A DNA stretch of 10,336 bases. Source: Verrucomicrobiia bacterium (GTDB lineage: Bacteria; Verrucomicrobiota; Verrucomicrobiia; Limisphaerales; Palsa-1400). The stretch covers positions 1 to 10,336 of the forward strand of contig JAICXV010000022.1 of the NCBI GenBank assembly GCA_025934545.1, in the 5' to 3' direction. Positions 2,054 to 7,852 of the stretch are shown piece by piece (the first letter of the stretch is position 1; each line of letters opens with the position of its first letter). Both the position numbers and the translations under genes were made by a program. A model generated the notes under the pieces. The model was given only the letters and a program-made list of their open reading frames with translations, searched no databases and had not been told where the DNA came from.

Positions 2054-3087
2054 CAAATCTGCCTGAAAGAGATTTCAAAAACCCGCGCGCGGAGCACGGG
2101 TTCAAAGGACGCACCTGTTCGATTGCCGCCGTCGGGTCCTACGTCCCCTCCAAAGTTTTGACCAATGCCGACCTCGAGAAAATGGTCGACACAACGGACG
2201 ACTGGATTACCAGCCGCACCGGCATCAAAGCACGCCGCATCGCCGCCGCTGACGAATTTACGTCCGACATGGCAACGAAGGCAGCGCAGCTCGCTTTGGA
2301 ACGCGCCCAGCTTGAGGCGTCGCAAATCGATTTGATCATCGTCGCGACGATTACTCCCGACATGCCCTTCCCTTCCACGGCTTGTTTGGTGCAACAAAAG
2401 CTCGGAGCTTACCGGGCGGCAGCGTTCGATATCGAGGCGGCTTGTTCTGGTTTTATTTTTGCGCTGGAAATTGGACAGCAATTCATCATGTCGCGCACGT
2501 ATGACACGATTCTGGTCATTGGCGCCGAAAAGCTTTCGTCGATTATTAATTGGAAAGATCGCAATACGTGCGTGTTGTTTGGCGATGGTGCGGGCGCGGC
2601 CATTTTACAGAATCGCCCCGATTCGCACGGTTTGTTGACGGCGTGCATGGGTTCGGACGGAAATAAAGCGGACCTTCTCTGTTTGCCGGGCGGCGGTTGC
2701 CGGATGCCTCCTACTCCCGATTCGCTCGCGGCGGGCAATCATTATTTGCGGATGGATGGCAAAGAAACTTTCAAAAACGCGGTCAACGCCATGTGCAGCG
2801 CGGCTACGGAAGCGTTGCGCCGGTGCGAAGTCGACATCACGCAAATCAAATGCATCATCCCGCACCAGGCGAACCTGCGCATCATCGATGCGGTTTCCGA
2901 TCGGCTCGGCGCAAAACCGGAACAACGGTTTATTAATTTGGACAGATATGGCAACACGTCGGCGGCTTCCGTGGCGATTGCACTGGATGAAGCGGTGCAA
3001 GCGGGGCGGATTCAGCGCGGGGATTTGGTGTTGCTGGTGGTTTTCGGAGCGGGACTGACGTGGGGCGCGGCGGTTATTGAGTGGTAA
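2050..3087 (+). CDS. fabH: Beta-ketoacyl-ACP synthase III (FabH)
   Basis: FabH performs the first condensation of type II fatty acid synthesis, joining an acyl-CoA primer with malonyl-ACP. The 345-residue protein shows the complete catalytic triad: C132 in EAACSGF (129-135), H272 in PHQANLRI (271-278) and N302 in YGNTSAAS (300-307). GDGAGAA (178-184) and the terminal FGAGLTWGA (332-340) are also typical. The first ~20 residues, before CSIAAVGSYVP, are an N-terminal extension compared with E. coli FabH. A start further in would lose the 4-bp ATGA overlap with plsX, so I kept the ATG at 2050. Placement after plsX is the classic plsX-fabH lipid cluster; fabD, fabG and acpP are not seen downstream. 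Its 3' end overlaps the convergent nagA by 14 bp. Confidence 0.97.
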   Translation: MTNLPERDFKNPRAEHGFKGRTCSIAAVGSYVPSKVLTNADLEKMVDTTDDWITSRTGIKARRIAAADEFTSDMATKAAQLALERAQLEASQIDLIIVATITPDMPFPSTACLVQQKLGAYRAAAFDIEAACSGFIFALEIGQQFIMSRTYDTILVIGAEKLSSIINWKDRNTCVLFGDGAGAAILQNRPDSHGLLTACMGSDGNKADLLCLPGGGCRMPPTPDSLAAGNHYLRMDGKETFKNAVNAMCSAATEALRRCEVDITQIKCIIPHQANLRIIDAVSDRLGAKPEQRFINLDRYGNTSAASVAIALDEAVQAGRIQRGDLVLLVVFGAGLTWGAAVIEW

Positions 3088-4216
3088 ACGGCGTGACCGT
3101 GTGCAACCGCTCTAGTTTCTGATCTGCCATGTGCAGCAAACAAAAGTTTGCTGGTTGCTTCGCCGCAATTTCGTTTTTCAATCCCATGAAATGTGCGGGT
3201 GCTTCGGCCATGCGTTTCCACGTTTCTTGCCATGGCACGCCTAACATTTCTGCTGCACGAAATACTCCATCGATCGGACTCAATGCAGAGCCCGCAAAGT
3301 TTGTTTTTCCGGGTTGCCGGACAATTTGATCTTCCCCGACTTCAAGTTCCATCGCGCCGAGTTTGAATTTACCGGGACCTGCCCCTGCGGCGGACATGGC
3401 GTCGGTCGTGTAAAAGATTTTCGGCAACGTCCGATGGACCAAACGAAATAGAGCCGGCGAAACGTGGATTTTGTCTGGAATCAAACTGACGGTTAATTCA
3501 GGACGTTCGAACACACGCCACAAAATATTGTCGTGACGATCGAGTTCGCGTGGGCAGCCGTTGCCCAGATGGGTGAAACCGGTCGCGCCGGCGTCGACCG
3601 CTTGTTTTAAAACATCTGCGGAAGCGTTGGTATGGCCTAGACTCACCTTGGCTCCGCGTGAAACGGCGTGTTTGATTGCGGCGATTGCACCGTTACGTTC
3701 TGGCGACACGGTGAGAAGCAACGGATCGCCGGCAGCGATGTCGCAAAGTTCGTTCACTTTTTCGACGGTCGGATCGAGCATCAGCTTCGGATCATGCGCG
3801 CCGTGGAATCCGGGAGCAGCGGACAGAAACGGACCCTCAATGTGCCAACCGGCCACGCTCGCCCGCAACTCCGGCGATTGTGCGTGAAATTCCTTAGCGC
3901 GCTTGAACCGCGCCGTGAGTTGTTTCCAATCGGCGGTGATGAGCGTCAGGAAAAATTTGCCGCATCCATGCTCGCGCAGCTTGCGCGAGGCCGTCAGCAA
4001 ATCATCCAACGTAAAGTCGTCTCGTTGAAAATCGACCGCGCCGTAACCATTGACCTGCACGTCAAAGAGCGCCGGCGCGATCCATAAAGAATCAGCGGGA
4101 GCATTGCTGCTCCCGCTGTTCAAGTTTTCAATTTTGGTTACGACGCCGTTTTTCCAGGTGACACGCACCGGCTTGCGCGTTGCGTAATGCCACGCTGCAA
4201 TTTCGCCATCGTTCAT
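3074..4216 (-). CDS. nagA: N-acetylglucosamine-6-phosphate deacetylase (NagA)
   Basis: NagA removes acetate from GlcNAc-6-phosphate in the cytosol, giving glucosamine-6-phosphate for amino-sugar catabolism or wall recycling. This 380-residue amidohydrolase shows metal ligand E127 in HIEGPF (125-130), H195 in GHTNA (194-198), H216 in HLGNG (216-220), H251 in DKIHVSP (248-254) and the catalytic aspartate D272 in TTDAMSAAG (270-278). The H216, R227 and H251 positions agree with those I remember for the E. coli enzyme. The usual HL(F/Y)NAM segment is replaced by HLGNGCP, a lineage-type variant. The substrate could also be a related N-acetylhexosamine phosphate. The ATG at 4216 is 12 bp after the stop of the outer-membrane protein gene, so they are likely one operon. 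No nagB is visible. Its last 14 bp overlap the end of fabH tail to tail. Confidence 0.9.
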   Translation of the reverse strand: MNDGEIAAWHYATRKPVRVTWKNGVVTKIENLNSGSSNAPADSLWIAPALFDVQVNGYGAVDFQRDDFTLDDLLTASRKLREHGCGKFFLTLITADWKQLTARFKRAKEFHAQSPELRASVAGWHIEGPFLSAAPGFHGAHDPKLMLDPTVEKVNELCDIAAGDPLLLTVSPERNGAIAAIKHAVSRGAKVSLGHTNASADVLKQAVDAGATGFTHLGNGCPRELDRHDNILWRVFERPELTVSLIPDKIHVSPALFRLVHRTLPKIFYTTDAMSAAGAGPGKFKLGAMELEVGEDQIVRQPGKTNFAGSALSPIDGVFRAAEMLGVPWQETWKRMAEAPAHFMGLKNEIAAKQPANFCLLHMADQKLERLHTVTPFTTQ

Positions 4217-4228
4217 TCGCGCTACGAC

Positions 4229-4909
4229 TTAGAAATGCACCGTGAAGGCGGCGACGACCGCGTGCGTGAACAAATGATCCAGTCGAACGCGCAGGCCGTT
4301 ATCTTTCCAGTCCTGGTCGGTCGTTCCGAGGAATTTGTAACCAAGGCCAATATTAGCGCGGTCGCTCAACCGGTATCGAACGCCGGCAAACGCTTGATAC
4401 GCGAATGTGATGTCGGTGTCTTTCAAACGGGCGGTCGGGAAGGTCGCATCGAAAAGACTCAGTTCGCCGCCCGCGCCCGCGCCGATGTACGGTGAAAAGG
4501 CTTTTTCCGGTGAGAATTTGTAGACGACGTTGAGGAGCAGCGGAATTTGATACAGATCGCCGTGGCCGAATTCATACGCTTCGCCAGACTCAGTCGGCGG
4601 GGGCGGAGGAGGAGGTGGCGGCGGATTGGTGGTAATTGTTCCAACGCGACTCATGCGATTCCAGATGACGCCGGTCTGCAATTGCAAACCGATGTTCTGG
4701 TTCATCATCACGCCCCACATCAGGTCGGCGCGGACGCCCGTCGAAAAGTGCGCCTTTTTGTCATCAACGTCTTTAAGTTGCTCAGACTGAACCCAGGACG
4801 GGCCAGCATCGAAGCCGAAATATGATTTTGACATATCGACCGCTCGAACTTCCATTCCAGCCCAAAGAGCGGCCCCCGCGATTACGGTTTTCAAAAATGC
4901 TTTAGTCAT
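4229..4909 (-). CDS. Small outer-membrane beta-barrel protein with a polyproline loop
   Basis: This predicted 226-residue protein has a signal peptide (MTKAFLKTVIAGAALWAGMEVRA, shown here only as residues 1-23: a basic start, a hydrophobic core and an A-x-A-like VRA end), alternating polar/hydrophobic strands, repeated YxGxGxG patterns (YIGAGAGGEL, 141-150; IGLGYKF, 187-193) and a terminal Phe (VHF), the usual barrel-assembly signal. It resembles the 8-stranded OmpA/OmpX-like beta-barrel families; its ligand is unknown. Residues 96-105 are ten consecutive prolines, probably in an extramembrane loop. The frame is open to an ATG at 4981, but I chose 4909 because only that start places the signal peptide at the N-terminus. 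nagA follows after 12 bp, which may point to a link with amino-sugar or wall-fragment uptake, but this is inference. Confidence 0.8.
   Translation of the reverse strand: MTKAFLKTVIAGAALWAGMEVRAVDMSKSYFGFDAGPSWVQSEQLKDVDDKKAHFSTGVRADLMWGVMMNQNIGLQLQTGVIWNRMSRVGTITTNPPPPPPPPPPTESGEAYEFGHGDLYQIPLLLNVVYKFSPEKAFSPYIGAGAGGELSLFDATFPTARLKDTDITFAYQAFAGVRYRLSDRANIGLGYKFLGTTDQDWKDNGLRVRLDHLFTHAVVAAFTVHF
4595..4624 (-). repeat. 30-bp CCN tract encoding ten prolines
   Basis: Ten successive proline codons (mixed CCG, CCA, CCT and CCC) lie in the barrel gene. Because the codons are mixed, the run is not a pure DNA microsatellite, which suggests the protein sequence is selected. A run of ten prolines would normally stall ribosomes unless EF-P is active. 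Confidence 0.85.
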
Positions 4910-4996
4910 AAGGCGGCCAATATCATCCGGCTGACGTTGTGTTGACAAGGGAGTTTTTTTGAGCGTTTCCCCGATGCGCAATGTCTGTTAGACAGA
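4910..4996. promoter_or_regulatory. Divergent promoter region with a shared -35-like core and a 13-bp dyad
   Basis: This 87-bp gap separates the divergent barrel and hydrolase genes. For the - strand, TTGTCA (plus-strand 4943-4948) and GATATT (plus-strand 4919-4924) stand 18 bp apart, giving a plausible promoter with a very short leader. On the + strand the overlapping TTGACA (4942-4947) is a perfect -35 hexamer, but I see no good -10 at 16-18 bp from it. A perfect inverted repeat TGTCT-GTT-AGACA (4982-4994) ends 2 bp before the GTG start of the hydrolase. It could be an operator or a start-occluding hairpin. Confidence 0.4.
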
Positions 4997-5830
4997 GTGA
5001 TAAAGCGCAAAACTTCAGTGCGATGGAGATTGGTCGGCATCACCGTTTGTTGCGTCGTCGCGTTGTTGGTGCTCGGTTGTTCGATGTTTACCCGCAAACT
5101 GCTTTATTTTCCCAGCCATGTTCCGCTCGACCAGGCAACATTTATGGCGGCGCGCGCTGGATATGAACCGTGGCGCGACGAGACCGGCGAGGTTATCGGT
5201 TGGAAGCTCGAGTCAAAAACGAATTCGAATCTGCCGCGCGTTTTGATTACGCACGGCAACGGCGGTTGCGCGGTCTTTCGCGTCAATTATCTCGATAATT
5301 TGCAAAAGGTCGCGCCGTGCGATGTCTATCTGCTGGAGTACCCCGGATATGGCGCAAGGCCGGGTTCGCCGACGCAGACGAGTTTTTTCAAAGCAGCGGT
5401 CGGAGCGATGACGTTGCTTGAAAAGAAAAAAGGCGGACCCATTTACATTGTCGGCGAATCTCTTGGGACCGGCGTGGCGTGTTATCTCGCCGGAACGTAT
5501 CCGAATCTCGTTAAGGGCGTGCTCTTAATTGCGCCGTATCACAATTTGACGGATGTCGCGCAATATCACATTCGCGTTCTGCCGGCGAAGTGGCTGTTGC
5601 CAGATAAATTTCCGTCTGCCTCGCTGTTAAGTTCGTATCACGGGCTTGTTGCAGTCATCGTTGGCGGGCGCGACACGGTTGTTCCCGAACAATTTGGTCG
5701 CGCGTTGTACGACTCTTATTCGGGACCGAAAAAATTATGGGAAGTCAAAACGGCCGGACACAATGATCTGCCAATTGAGCCAGTCGAGTGGTGGCAGGAG
5801 TTGGTCGAATTTTGGAACCGCAAATTGTAG
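4997..5830 (+). CDS. Membrane-anchored alpha/beta hydrolase
   Basis: This 277-residue serine hydrolase fold belongs to the BEM46/ABHD13-like group. It starts with a basic segment (MIKRKTSVRWR), then a hydrophobic stretch (about residues 12-27) ending in LVLGC, so it is either a lipoprotein acylated at C28 or a one-pass membrane protein with the catalytic domain outside the cytoplasm. The triad is visible: S155 in the nucleophile elbow GESLG (153-157), D226 in GGRD (223-226) and H255 in AGHND (253-257). HGNGG (86-90) supplies the oxyanion hole. The substrate cannot be read from sequence; esterase, thioesterase or acyltransferase activity is possible. The start is GTG at 4997, chosen because it gives the anchor; a GTG at 5018 is an alternative. 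It is divergent from the barrel gene, and 93 bp separate its end from the next gene. Confidence 0.85.
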   Translation: MIKRKTSVRWRLVGITVCCVVALLVLGCSMFTRKLLYFPSHVPLDQATFMAARAGYEPWRDETGEVIGWKLESKTNSNLPRVLITHGNGGCAVFRVNYLDNLQKVAPCDVYLLEYPGYGARPGSPTQTSFFKAAVGAMTLLEKKKGGPIYIVGESLGTGVACYLAGTYPNLVKGVLLIAPYHNLTDVAQYHIRVLPAKWLLPDKFPSASLLSSYHGLVAVIVGGRDTVVPEQFGRALYDSYSGPKKLWEVKTAGHNDLPIEPVEWWQELVEFWNRKL

Positions 5831-5843
5831 ACAAAAATATACG

Positions 5844-5872
5844 TTGACACGATTTGTTGAGGACACTATTAG
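5844..5872 (+). promoter_or_regulatory. Sigma-70-like promoter for the RNR-like gene
   Basis: TTGACA (5844-5849) is a perfect -35 hexamer. After exactly 17 bp comes TATTAG (5867-5872), which matches 4 of 6 positions of the -10 consensus. Transcription would begin near 5879, giving a leader of about 45 nt before the ATG at 5924. The gene would then be its own transcription unit, not a read-through from the hydrolase. Confidence 0.55.
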
Positions 5873-5923
5873 GAGGGCTGCGGCAGGCCTTGTAACACCA
5901 TTTGTGGGCTTACCGCGTCTATA

Positions 5924-7852
5924 ATGAAAAGGAAGGTCGACGGGCAACCGGATTTGCTGGCGCTTGACTCGGTCCAAAGCGCCCCCCCGCCTGCCGCCAA
6001 ATCGCCTTCTACCGATACCTCGAAACCCGCGATTTCCTCCGACAAAGTGCTCGTACGCAAACGCGATGGTTCGACCGAACCTTTCAGCCGGGCACGCATT
6101 GCCGTGGCGATCGAAAGCGCGTTCAAGGCCGTTCGCAACATTCCCGCGGACGAACCGATGACAGGCGCAATGAACGAAATCGTTAGTGGTCTCGCCGACA
6201 AAATTTCCCAATGGCTGCTTGATCACGCACGCAAGGGAGCGAACCTCGACGTCGAACGGATTCAAGACTCGGTCGAAAATCAAATGATGTGCGACGGCTA
6301 CTTGACCGAAGCGCGCCGATATATTCTCTATCGCGAAGATCGTCGAAAATCGCGCGAAGAGAAAACCGAGGTCCCGCAAACGATTTATGTGGTTCGCCGC
6401 GATGGGCGTCGTGAAGAATTTGACCCCGAACGCATCCGGCATCGGCTAACAGAGGCTGCTGCCGGACTCGAGGGGTGCGACGTCGACGCGTTGCTGCGCG
6501 AAGTAAAAGGTTTTATCGCCGACGGCACAGCGACTGCGCAGATCACAGATATTCTCGTCGCGACCGCCAAAGCGCGTCGTGATGTCTGTGCTGCCTGTGG
6601 CAAAATCGCTTCGCGCCTGTTGCTCAAAGAAATTTATTCCCAGACCATTCCCGAAATTTGCCCGGCGAAAGAATTTCCGGCATTGCACCAGGCGCGGTTC
6701 AGCTATGCCATCCAGGATGCGGTGCACAATAATCAACTCGCCCCCGAGTTGCTCGGCTACGAGTTGGAACATCTCGCGAGTGCATTGAAACTCGAGCGTG
6801 ATGAGTTGCTTGCCGTTGATGGACTGGAATGGATGGCCGATGTTTGCCTGGCACGCGACGGCGAGCGTCGCGTTGAAACTCCGCAATATTTCTGGATGCG
6901 CGTCGCCATGGCGCTGGCGTTTAATGAAGGCGAGGAAAAAGAAAATCGCGCGATTGAATTTTACGAAGCTCTTTCGACGCTCCGCTTTTTGCCATCGGAA
7001 AAGCTTTTGCGCGTTTGCGGCCGCTCTTCCGCCATCATCGCGCGCAACGCCTCGTCGGAGAGTGAAGATGTCCAATTGACCGCCCGGCCCGGCGGCCACG
7101 TCAACCTCGCCGGTCACGTTCAGGCCGGCGCGCTCGACGAGTTGCTGCTCTATAACACTGTCACAACAGGCGTTCGCCTCCTCGACAACGCGATTGATTT
7201 CAAAAAAGATCGCCTCGACGCGATGGCGCAACACGCGCGCGACCATCGCGATATTGCCATTGGCATTATTGGCTACGACGCTGCCGGCGCATCGCTCGAT
7301 CTGGCCGACCGCGCCACCGAAGCCGTCGCCTATTGCGCGGCGCTTAGTTCTGCGGTGCTCGCCGGTGAACGGGATTCGTATCCCGCCTGCTCCGAATCGA
7401 ACTGGACAATTGGCGCGTTGCCATTTGAAGGTTTGAAATTCGCCAAGGCCGACAGCAACACTCCGTCGCAAACGAACCGAGCGCCGTCGAAAGATTGGAC
7501 GTCCGTCCGGGCTGCAATCAAACAAAACGGTATCCGCAATGGCCATCTCCTCGCGCTCACGCCGGCGCCGGCACTGGAAAAACTGATCAGCGACGCGTCA
7601 CTGCCGGCCTCGTTTTCTTCACAACTGGAACGAACAGTGCGCTGTCGAAAATGGGTGGACGGACCGGTATGGATTACGTTGCCGCAATACCTCACCGGAC
7701 CGGATTTCGAACAGGCGTGTTTGCTCGCGCAACAATTGGGCATTCGACCTTTCACTCCGCCGGTTCGTTTAACCATGTCCGACGATCATCTGCTAATCGA
7801 CGCTGCGGCGGCGACGAAGGTGCTCAAACACCTTGTTAGTAAAGGTTCGTAG
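5924..7852 (+). CDS. Double ATP-cone protein with degenerate ribonucleotide reductase alpha domain
   Basis: The first 40 residues of this 642-residue protein are Pro/Ser-rich and probably disordered. ATP-cone 1 spans about 41-142 (VRKRDGSTEPF, 44-54) and ATP-cone 2 about 152-243 (VVRRDGRREEF, 156-166). Residues ~258-357 resemble the RNR large-subunit N-terminal domain, including VETPQYFWMRVA (317-328). Then about 40 residues stand where a normal class I alpha subunit has well over 200. RNR similarity resumes at HVNLAGHV (392-399), VRLLDNAID (417-425), GIIGYD (447-452) and GIRNGHLLALTP (536-547). In the skipped region I find no counterpart of the first redox cysteine or the Asn-Cys-Glu active-site segment. 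The radical-transfer Tyr pair is replaced by TPP (611-613), and the redox C-terminal tail is absent. Active RNRs use ATP-cones to sense ATP/dATP. I infer a catalytically dead nucleotide sensor or regulator of a true RNR. No nrdB or nrdR is adjacent. The frame is intact, so it is not an obvious pseudogene. Confidence 0.75.
   Translation: MKRKVDGQPDLLALDSVQSAPPPAAKSPSTDTSKPAISSDKVLVRKRDGSTEPFSRARIAVAIESAFKAVRNIPADEPMTGAMNEIVSGLADKISQWLLDHARKGANLDVERIQDSVENQMMCDGYLTEARRYILYREDRRKSREEKTEVPQTIYVVRRDGRREEFDPERIRHRLTEAAAGLEGCDVDALLREVKGFIADGTATAQITDILVATAKARRDVCAACGKIASRLLLKEIYSQTIPEICPAKEFPALHQARFSYAIQDAVHNNQLAPELLGYELEHLASALKLERDELLAVDGLEWMADVCLARDGERRVETPQYFWMRVAMALAFNEGEEKENRAIEFYEALSTLRFLPSEKLLRVCGRSSAIIARNASSESEDVQLTARPGGHVNLAGHVQAGALDELLLYNTVTTGVRLLDNAIDFKKDRLDAMAQHARDHRDIAIGIIGYDAAGASLDLADRATEAVAYCAALSSAVLAGERDSYPACSESNWTIGALPFEGLKFAKADSNTPSQTNRAPSKDWTSVRAAIKQNGIRNGHLLALTPAPALEKLISDASLPASFSSQLERTVRCRKWVDGPVWITLPQYLTGPDFEQACLLAQQLGIRPFTPPVRLTMSDDHLLIDAAAATKVLKHLVSKGS

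Follow-up and report, generated by a model that had tools for sequence, protein, structure and literature searches.

Ribonucleotide reductase (RNR) sets the supply of DNA precursors, and the switching of this enzyme by its ATP-cone is a classic example of allosteric control. Here we describe a gene, pseudo-NrdA, that very probably encodes a dead RNR kept under selection. It lies on a 10,336-nucleotide stretch of a draft Verrucomicrobiia genome (contig JAICXV010000022.1 of assembly GCA_025934545.1); this whole stretch is referred to as the window and its genome as G000.

The closest solved structure to pseudo-NrdA is P. aeruginosa NrdA (PDB 5im3, E 2.6e-50), a class I RNR large subunit with two ATP-cones. 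Unlike this enzyme, pseudo-NrdA has no NxCxE loop, the finger-loop motif that holds the catalytic cysteine (PMC9669993), and no specificity-site loops, Tyr-Tyr or redox cysteine pair. Most of the barrel profile is also gone, and NrdB was not found in the genome. The inactive R1 homologues of betaherpesviruses, HHV-6B RNR and MCMV M45, are similar in that activity was lost while the large subunit was kept for another role; HCMV UL45 is presumably a further case. These proteins are viral and have immune functions, whereas pseudo-NrdA is bacterial, keeps an ATP-cone and has an NrdR-like operator. The opening parts of the abstracts on betaherpesvirus R1 mention no cone-based role. NrdR is itself non-enzymatic, reads ATP/dATP by an ATP-cone and concerns RNR supply (PMC12051234). 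It carries a Zn-ribbon DNA-binding domain before the cone and has a 147-position model, whereas no such domain was found in pseudo-NrdA by Pfam or NCBIfam, and the NrdR model TIGR00244 scored 13.3 bits (E 0.064) against a cut-off of 124.65. A reading of pseudo-NrdA as an NrdR-like DNA binder was rejected because of this missing domain. The proposal of the initial annotation that it controls genes in the NrdR manner thus has no support as far as DNA binding is concerned, but the gene itself resembles an NrdR target. NrdR and pseudo-NrdA are present side by side in the genome. In L. blandensis the cone is on the other subunit, NrdB, where the activity switch lies outside the catalytic chain and acts via oligomerisation (PMC5794259). 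That cone is on a working radical-generating subunit, whereas the cone of pseudo-NrdA is carried by a dead alpha subunit that accompanies a class II enzyme.

The pseudo-NrdA frame is intact, as annotated, over 642 codons from an ATG start with no internal stop (Table 1). Pfam detected the ATP-cone in two stretches (E 8.6e-29), Ribonuc_red_lgN (PF00317; E 2.8e-14) and, over residues 391-548, Ribonuc_red_lgC (PF02867; E 3.6e-18), the last with only ~31% of the barrel profile covered. The class II NrdJ domains Ribonuc_red_2_N and TSCPD were not found by Pfam. The match to 5im3 fell into two pieces, residues 18-362 and 390-554, with 361-603 of the chain missing between them. NCBIfam gave 19 matches at E up to 1, comprising 18 RNR models and one NrdR model, all under their cut-offs. 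Homology to class I NrdA spans the cones, the all-alpha domain and the barrel by Pfam, by the structure match and in the tree. On these comparisons, pseudo-NrdA is a descendant of a double-cone class I NrdA.

The losses from this ancestor are extensive. In the alignment, the barrel collapses between approximately residues 366 and 391 and the finger loop falls in the resulting gap, which bears out the annotated removal of the catalytic cysteine segment. The motif NxCxE was not found in pseudo-NrdA, nor in either of the two related pseudoenzymes described below. The Tyr-Tyr is replaced, with TPPVR at residues 611-615, and the C-terminal tail ends TKVLKHLVSKGS, without the cysteine pair, both in agreement with the initial annotation. 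As a control we used the best 80 of the 255 loci passing for the same query, in 76 of which the pattern recognised a frame. NLCTE, YY.R and a C-terminal CxxC were all present in 64 of the 65 relatives' frames from named genomes that are not cut by a locus end, the sole exception being L098, a broken 539-aa frame; loss of all three motifs is therefore unusual among the relatives. By alignment, an NrdA descendant has lost the catalytic cysteine, the specificity-site loops, the Tyr-Tyr and the redox cysteines, and in the genus of the window genome (g1) about half of the remaining barrel has been lost in addition. PF02867 matches only once in G000, a 73%-complete genome, the match being pseudo-NrdA itself, and a split enzyme with the missing barrel part encoded elsewhere was rejected on this basis.

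What has been kept is the outer ATP-cone. Its residues K46, R47, Y133, R137 and R141 are invariant across the three pseudoenzymes. They correspond, as mapped by spacing, to the Lys-Arg near the N-terminus and the Y-x3-R-x3-R of the last helix in the two-nucleotide cone type of P. aeruginosa, whose nucleotide contacts we took from PMC11226230. Both of the annotated cones are present in the window protein, but only the outer one is conserved; the inner cone is missing in both known relatives, leaving two cones in the window genome only.

Three of the six genomes of the family carry the gene: G000, G001 of the same genus and G004. The G001 ortholog (581 aa) is 60% identical in protein sequence, has the same junction and sits between the same outer membrane protein (OMP) and M48 genes; in the window, an alpha/beta hydrolase gene is additionally present between the OMP gene and pseudo-NrdA. 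The G004 form, a single-cone dead NrdA of 751 aa (L101, G004:C187, 10286-12541), keeps more of the barrel, its best stretch covering profile positions 80-402. Its finger loop has A, G and A in place of the N, C and E of NrdA, and it is without the segment of the specificity-site loops, the Tyr-Tyr and the cysteine pair; the residue roles are those of E. coli NrdA. The same 64 NrdA residues before the C-terminal part are missing from all three pseudoenzymes, which argues for shared descent, and in the tree the G004 protein joins the two others with support 99/92. Judged from these sequences, the 751-aa form may represent this loss at an earlier stage. Some caution applies to this grouping: the 99/92 node carries a long-branch warning, removal of either side from the tree leaves the place of the other unsupported, and the case for shared ancestry with the G004 form depends on that node together with the shared deletion. 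The upstream neighbour of the G004 gene encodes a CHASE2/guanylate cyclase protein.

Among the matches listed from 320 order genomes, full-length matches to the profile (982-1117 bits) came from these three proteins alone; a true NrdA followed at 303 bits. The order is probably that of Pedosphaera/Limisphaerales, as near-identical NrdA loci with known names suggest. Samples of 384 genomes of the class and 387 of the phylum, each taken from a larger group, gave no further member at E <= 1e-90. Three long frames in the order, in G250, G252 and G253, matched over the cone only and were considered as further dead RNRs; those of G250 and G253 were rejected, both being ordinary NrdD. Another order member has NrdA-like matches in two frames of 404 and 856 aa (G187:C256, 3186-5788), which reflect a broken gene or an assembly fault. 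Of the 82 candidate stretches in viral contigs (IMG/VR), two code for a relative, each matching over the outer cone only (L194 1853-2176, an ATP-cone by Pfam, and L195 3001-3276).

Comparison of the G000 and G001 genes over 567 codons gave differences of 0.295, 0.212 and 0.598 at first, second and third positions. The corresponding dN/dS was 0.132, a value that must be read with reserve because dS is saturated and omega rough. By part, dN/dS was 0.086 for the outer cone, 0.141 for the barrel remnant and 0.156 for the C-terminal part, and the neighbouring M48 gene gave 0.101 over 330 codons for the same pair of genomes. The comparison of G000 with G004 was looser (dN/dS 0.33). Of 1000 neutral copies simulated to this divergence, none stayed free of stops. 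These patterns in the aligned genes indicate that purifying selection has continued to act on the outer ATP-cone, the all-alpha domain, some of the barrel and the C-terminal part. The annotated pseudoenzyme that has lost its chemistry and kept an ATP-cone is thus real and conserved. It also withstands the two refutations proposed in the initial annotation, the active-site segment being missing and the same-genus ortholog sharing the deletion.

We next consider the other RNR components. NrdB was found in none of 11 genomes, including all six of the family, an absence that is uncertain in family drafts of 67-95% completeness; as a positive control, it was found in 12 of 12 NrdA-bearing genomes picked from the order. 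Class II NrdJ is the only full RNR found in the family and is present in five of the six genomes, the exception being G000. All five NrdJs have Ribonuc_red_2_N, a whole barrel and TSCPD, and none has an ATP-cone. A cone-less NrdJ is not odd in itself, because a cone occurs in less than 10% of class II RNRs (PMC11226230). NrdD was not found in seven genomes, five of them of the family, and NrdR was found in all 11, including all six of the family. From these gene inventories, pseudo-NrdA coexists with an RNR that itself lacks a cone. That it co-assembles with a real NrdA/NrdB, as first suggested, is unlikely, given that NrdB was found in none of the family genomes and that the real RNR found is the cone-less NrdJ.

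The upstream region suggests how pseudo-NrdA is regulated. The sigma-70-like promoter of the window gene (Table 1) has the same layout of TTGACA and TATTAG, read by eye, upstream of the G001 gene (spacer 17) and the G004 gene (spacer 18). NrdR boxes are paired 16-mers with 15-16 bp between them, i.e. 31-32 bp start to start (PMC12051234). All three genes have a weak pair of such boxes spaced by 32 bp, at -61/-29 in the window, -60/-28 in G001 and -78/-46 in G004, with 20, 20 and 22 of 32 matches to the consensus, respectively; in each gene the first box overlies the -10 element. The consensus scan found no higher-scoring pair spaced by 31 or 32 bp on the window contig or the G004 contig. Summed over the three genes, the matrix score reached 44.9 for a spacing of 32 bp, and none of the other 29 spacings between 20 and 49 exceeded 9.4. 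We also collected 111 upstream regions (92 unique), all labelled class I and seemingly including no NrdJ promoter; the five family NrdJ promoters were scored apart. A best pair of at least 22 over spacings 20-59 was present in 25 of the 92, and 19 of these 25 pairs were at 31 or 32 bp. The paired boxes suggest that the pseudo-NrdA gene is probably an NrdR target.

Several points count against this assignment. The boxes are weak, with 10 of 16 matches for each of the two in the window and 9 of 16 for box 2 in G001, and the scoring uses an assumed NrdR consensus. Markov shuffles of the 100 upstream bases reached the consensus score in 83, 118 and 2 of 5000 cases. The matrix was trained on 22 pairs chosen by the same consensus at 31/32 bp and is not independent of it. 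In the window it favours a pair at -109/-77, also spaced by 32 bp, over the homologous pair, and the sum of 44.9 includes this pair. Compared with randomly drawn pieces of related contigs, a background that contains genuine RNR promoters, the best pairs of the single genes reached only p 0.0062, 0.0153 and 0.0013. A consensus scan of spacings 17-59 ranked 48 (window) and 25 (G001) one point over 32. Finally, the count of 25 in 92 means that most RNR genes in the set are without a strong pair within 350 bases.

Upstream of the family nrdJ genes (L140-L144) there is an NrdR box, which in G004, for instance, reads CCACTATATGTGGTGT. Another palindrome with a different spelling (TCCC.ACT...ATGGGG-like) lies 31-32 bp past it and is clearest in G002-G005; from its placement, it is perhaps a family-specific box 2.

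These observations can be joined into one explanation. As a member of the NrdR regulon, pseudo-NrdA would be made when dNTPs are short, alongside the class II RNR, for which the operator gives fair support. More speculatively, the outer cone may bind ATP or dATP in the manner of the P. aeruginosa type, and dATP might drive cone-cone association, as in P. aeruginosa NrdA. Such association might in turn control whether what is left of the all-alpha/barrel surface binds a partner. The simplest candidate for this partner would be NrdJ, which is cone-less in the family and hence has no overall-activity switch of that kind. The whole chain, in which a maintained dead descendant of a double-cone class I NrdA is regulated by NrdR and acts in trans as an ATP/dATP sensor on dNTP supply, is plausible at somewhat less than an even chance. 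Its sensor step, with predicted ligand and partner, is weakly supported. The more specific version, that the stripped NrdA is a separate NrdR-controlled dATP sensor restoring overall-activity control to NrdJ in trans, we regard as a tentative possibility. Other findings weigh against the whole chain. G000 itself, which is 73% complete, yielded no NrdJ. G002, G003 and G005 (81, 89 and 95% complete) carry NrdJ and NrdR without a pseudo-NrdA gene, which implies that NrdJ can manage alone. The AlphaFold model of pseudo-NrdA has a mean pLDDT of 67, a pTM of 0.49 and values below 50 for 138 of 642 residues, too low a confidence for interpreting the barrel remnant and the junction. The retained fold that was initially proposed is therefore only partly right, most of the barrel profile being missing and the model unsure there.

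A rather unlikely alternative, which fares best among the others, is that pseudo-NrdA is a nucleotide-gated scaffold whose partner lies outside dNTP synthesis, the dead NrdA surface holding another protein and the cone serving as a switch or a mere dimeriser. The C-terminal part, far from the cones, is 67% identical between G000 and G001, compared with 70% for the cone and 66% for the all-alpha domain, which suggests a binding surface. A betaherpesvirus RNR that is inactive and holds a signalling protein of the host (PMC11772975) provides a precedent. However, the NrdR-like operator points toward dNTP metabolism, and no obvious partner gene is present among the window neighbours.

It is improbable that pseudo-NrdA is instead a cone-cone partner of NrdR, tuning the repressor and thereby adding a further nucleotide signal to the transcriptional control of nrdJ and of the pseudo-NrdA gene. 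Although no search covered all cones, NrdR is the one cone protein besides pseudo-NrdA that was found or would be expected, given its presence in every genome, the cone-less NrdJ and the missing NrdD, and the likeness of the pseudo-NrdA gene to an NrdR target would fit. However, NrdR also occurs in the relatives without pseudo-NrdA, and we know of no complex between an RNR cone and NrdR, although none was searched for.

We give an equally small chance to a relic in slow decay without present function. Progressive loss from 751 to 642 and 581 aa, the inner cone lost in two of three members, the gene not found in half of the family genomes and the weaker constraint between G000 and G004 are as expected of a relic. 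In contrast, the three intact frames and the neutral copies, none of them stop-free, argue against decay, as do the excess of third-position differences, a dN/dS near that of the neighbouring gene and a promoter layout kept between genera. An assembly or binning artefact, i.e. a chimeric contig or a gap wrongly closed across a normal NrdA, might be suspected in a fragmented draft of 797 contigs and is extremely improbable, as is a recent deletion, because the separate genome G001 has the same junction and flanking genes at 60% protein identity and misses the same second segment of 64 residues, a deletion shared by the dead G004 form; a frameshift or assembly error was rejected on the same repeated junction.

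Dead RNRs are known from betaherpesviruses; what is new here, as the compared sequences indicate, is a bacterial RNR pseudoenzyme that has kept its nucleotide-sensor domain. Judged by titles and the beginnings of abstracts, the literature searched holds no bacterial inactive RNR kept for another role. If pseudo-NrdA is a detached allosteric subunit, no earlier case of a regulatory RNR pseudoenzyme is known from bacteria as far as these searches show. A switch outliving its enzyme in a bacterial lineage would show that the sensing module is separable from catalysis. The 751-aa form with more barrel and the 642- and 581-aa forms with less would present natural evolution from enzyme to regulator at two stages, and the case would open the trans control of a cone-less class II RNR to experimental test.

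Table 1. Features of the pseudo-NrdA gene and its upstream region (window coordinates).
Feature	Position	Strand	Remarks	Basis
Sigma-70-like promoter	5844..5872	+	TTGACA-17-TATTAG	Read by eye
NrdR-box-like 16-mer 1	5863..5878	+	10/16 to consensus; overlaps -10 element	Consensus scan
NrdR-box-like 16-mer 2	5895..5910	+	10/16; 32 bp from box 1	Consensus scan
Pseudo-NrdA gene	5924..7852	+	642 aa, intact frame; ATP-cone x2, Ribonuc_red_lgN, partial Ribonuc_red_lgC	Pfam; same-genus ortholog, 60% identity
Outer ATP-cone	6044..6367	+	Residues 41-148; the conserved cone; VxKRDG and YxxxRxxxR kept in 3/3 pseudoenzymes	Pfam, alignment; contacts per PMC11226230
Inner ATP-cone region	6368..6658	+	Residues 149-245; missing from both relatives	Pfam, alignment
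RNR all-alpha N-terminal domain region	6659..7021	+	Residues 246-366	PF00317 at 302-368
Junction	7022..7093	+	Residues 367-390; specificity-site loops and first barrel part with catalytic Cys gone; identical junction in G001	Alignment
Barrel remnant	7094..7567	+	PF02867 positions 230-389 of 523	Pfam
C-terminal part	7604..7849	+	Residues 561-642; 64-residue NrdA segment gone at start; without Tyr-Tyr and redox Cys pair	Alignment

The neighbouring genes of the window encode YceD, PlsX, FabH, a NagA-like protein, the OMP, the hydrolase, M48 and an RNB-domain RNase. Rfam gave no match on the whole window or on positions 5800-6000. The NagA-like deacetylase (3074-4216, - strand) scored 156 bits against the NCBIfam nagA cut-off of 226 and had no Pfam match at E 1e-3. 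The OMP, an outer-membrane beta-barrel protein (4229-4981, - strand), contains a run of ~10 prolines.
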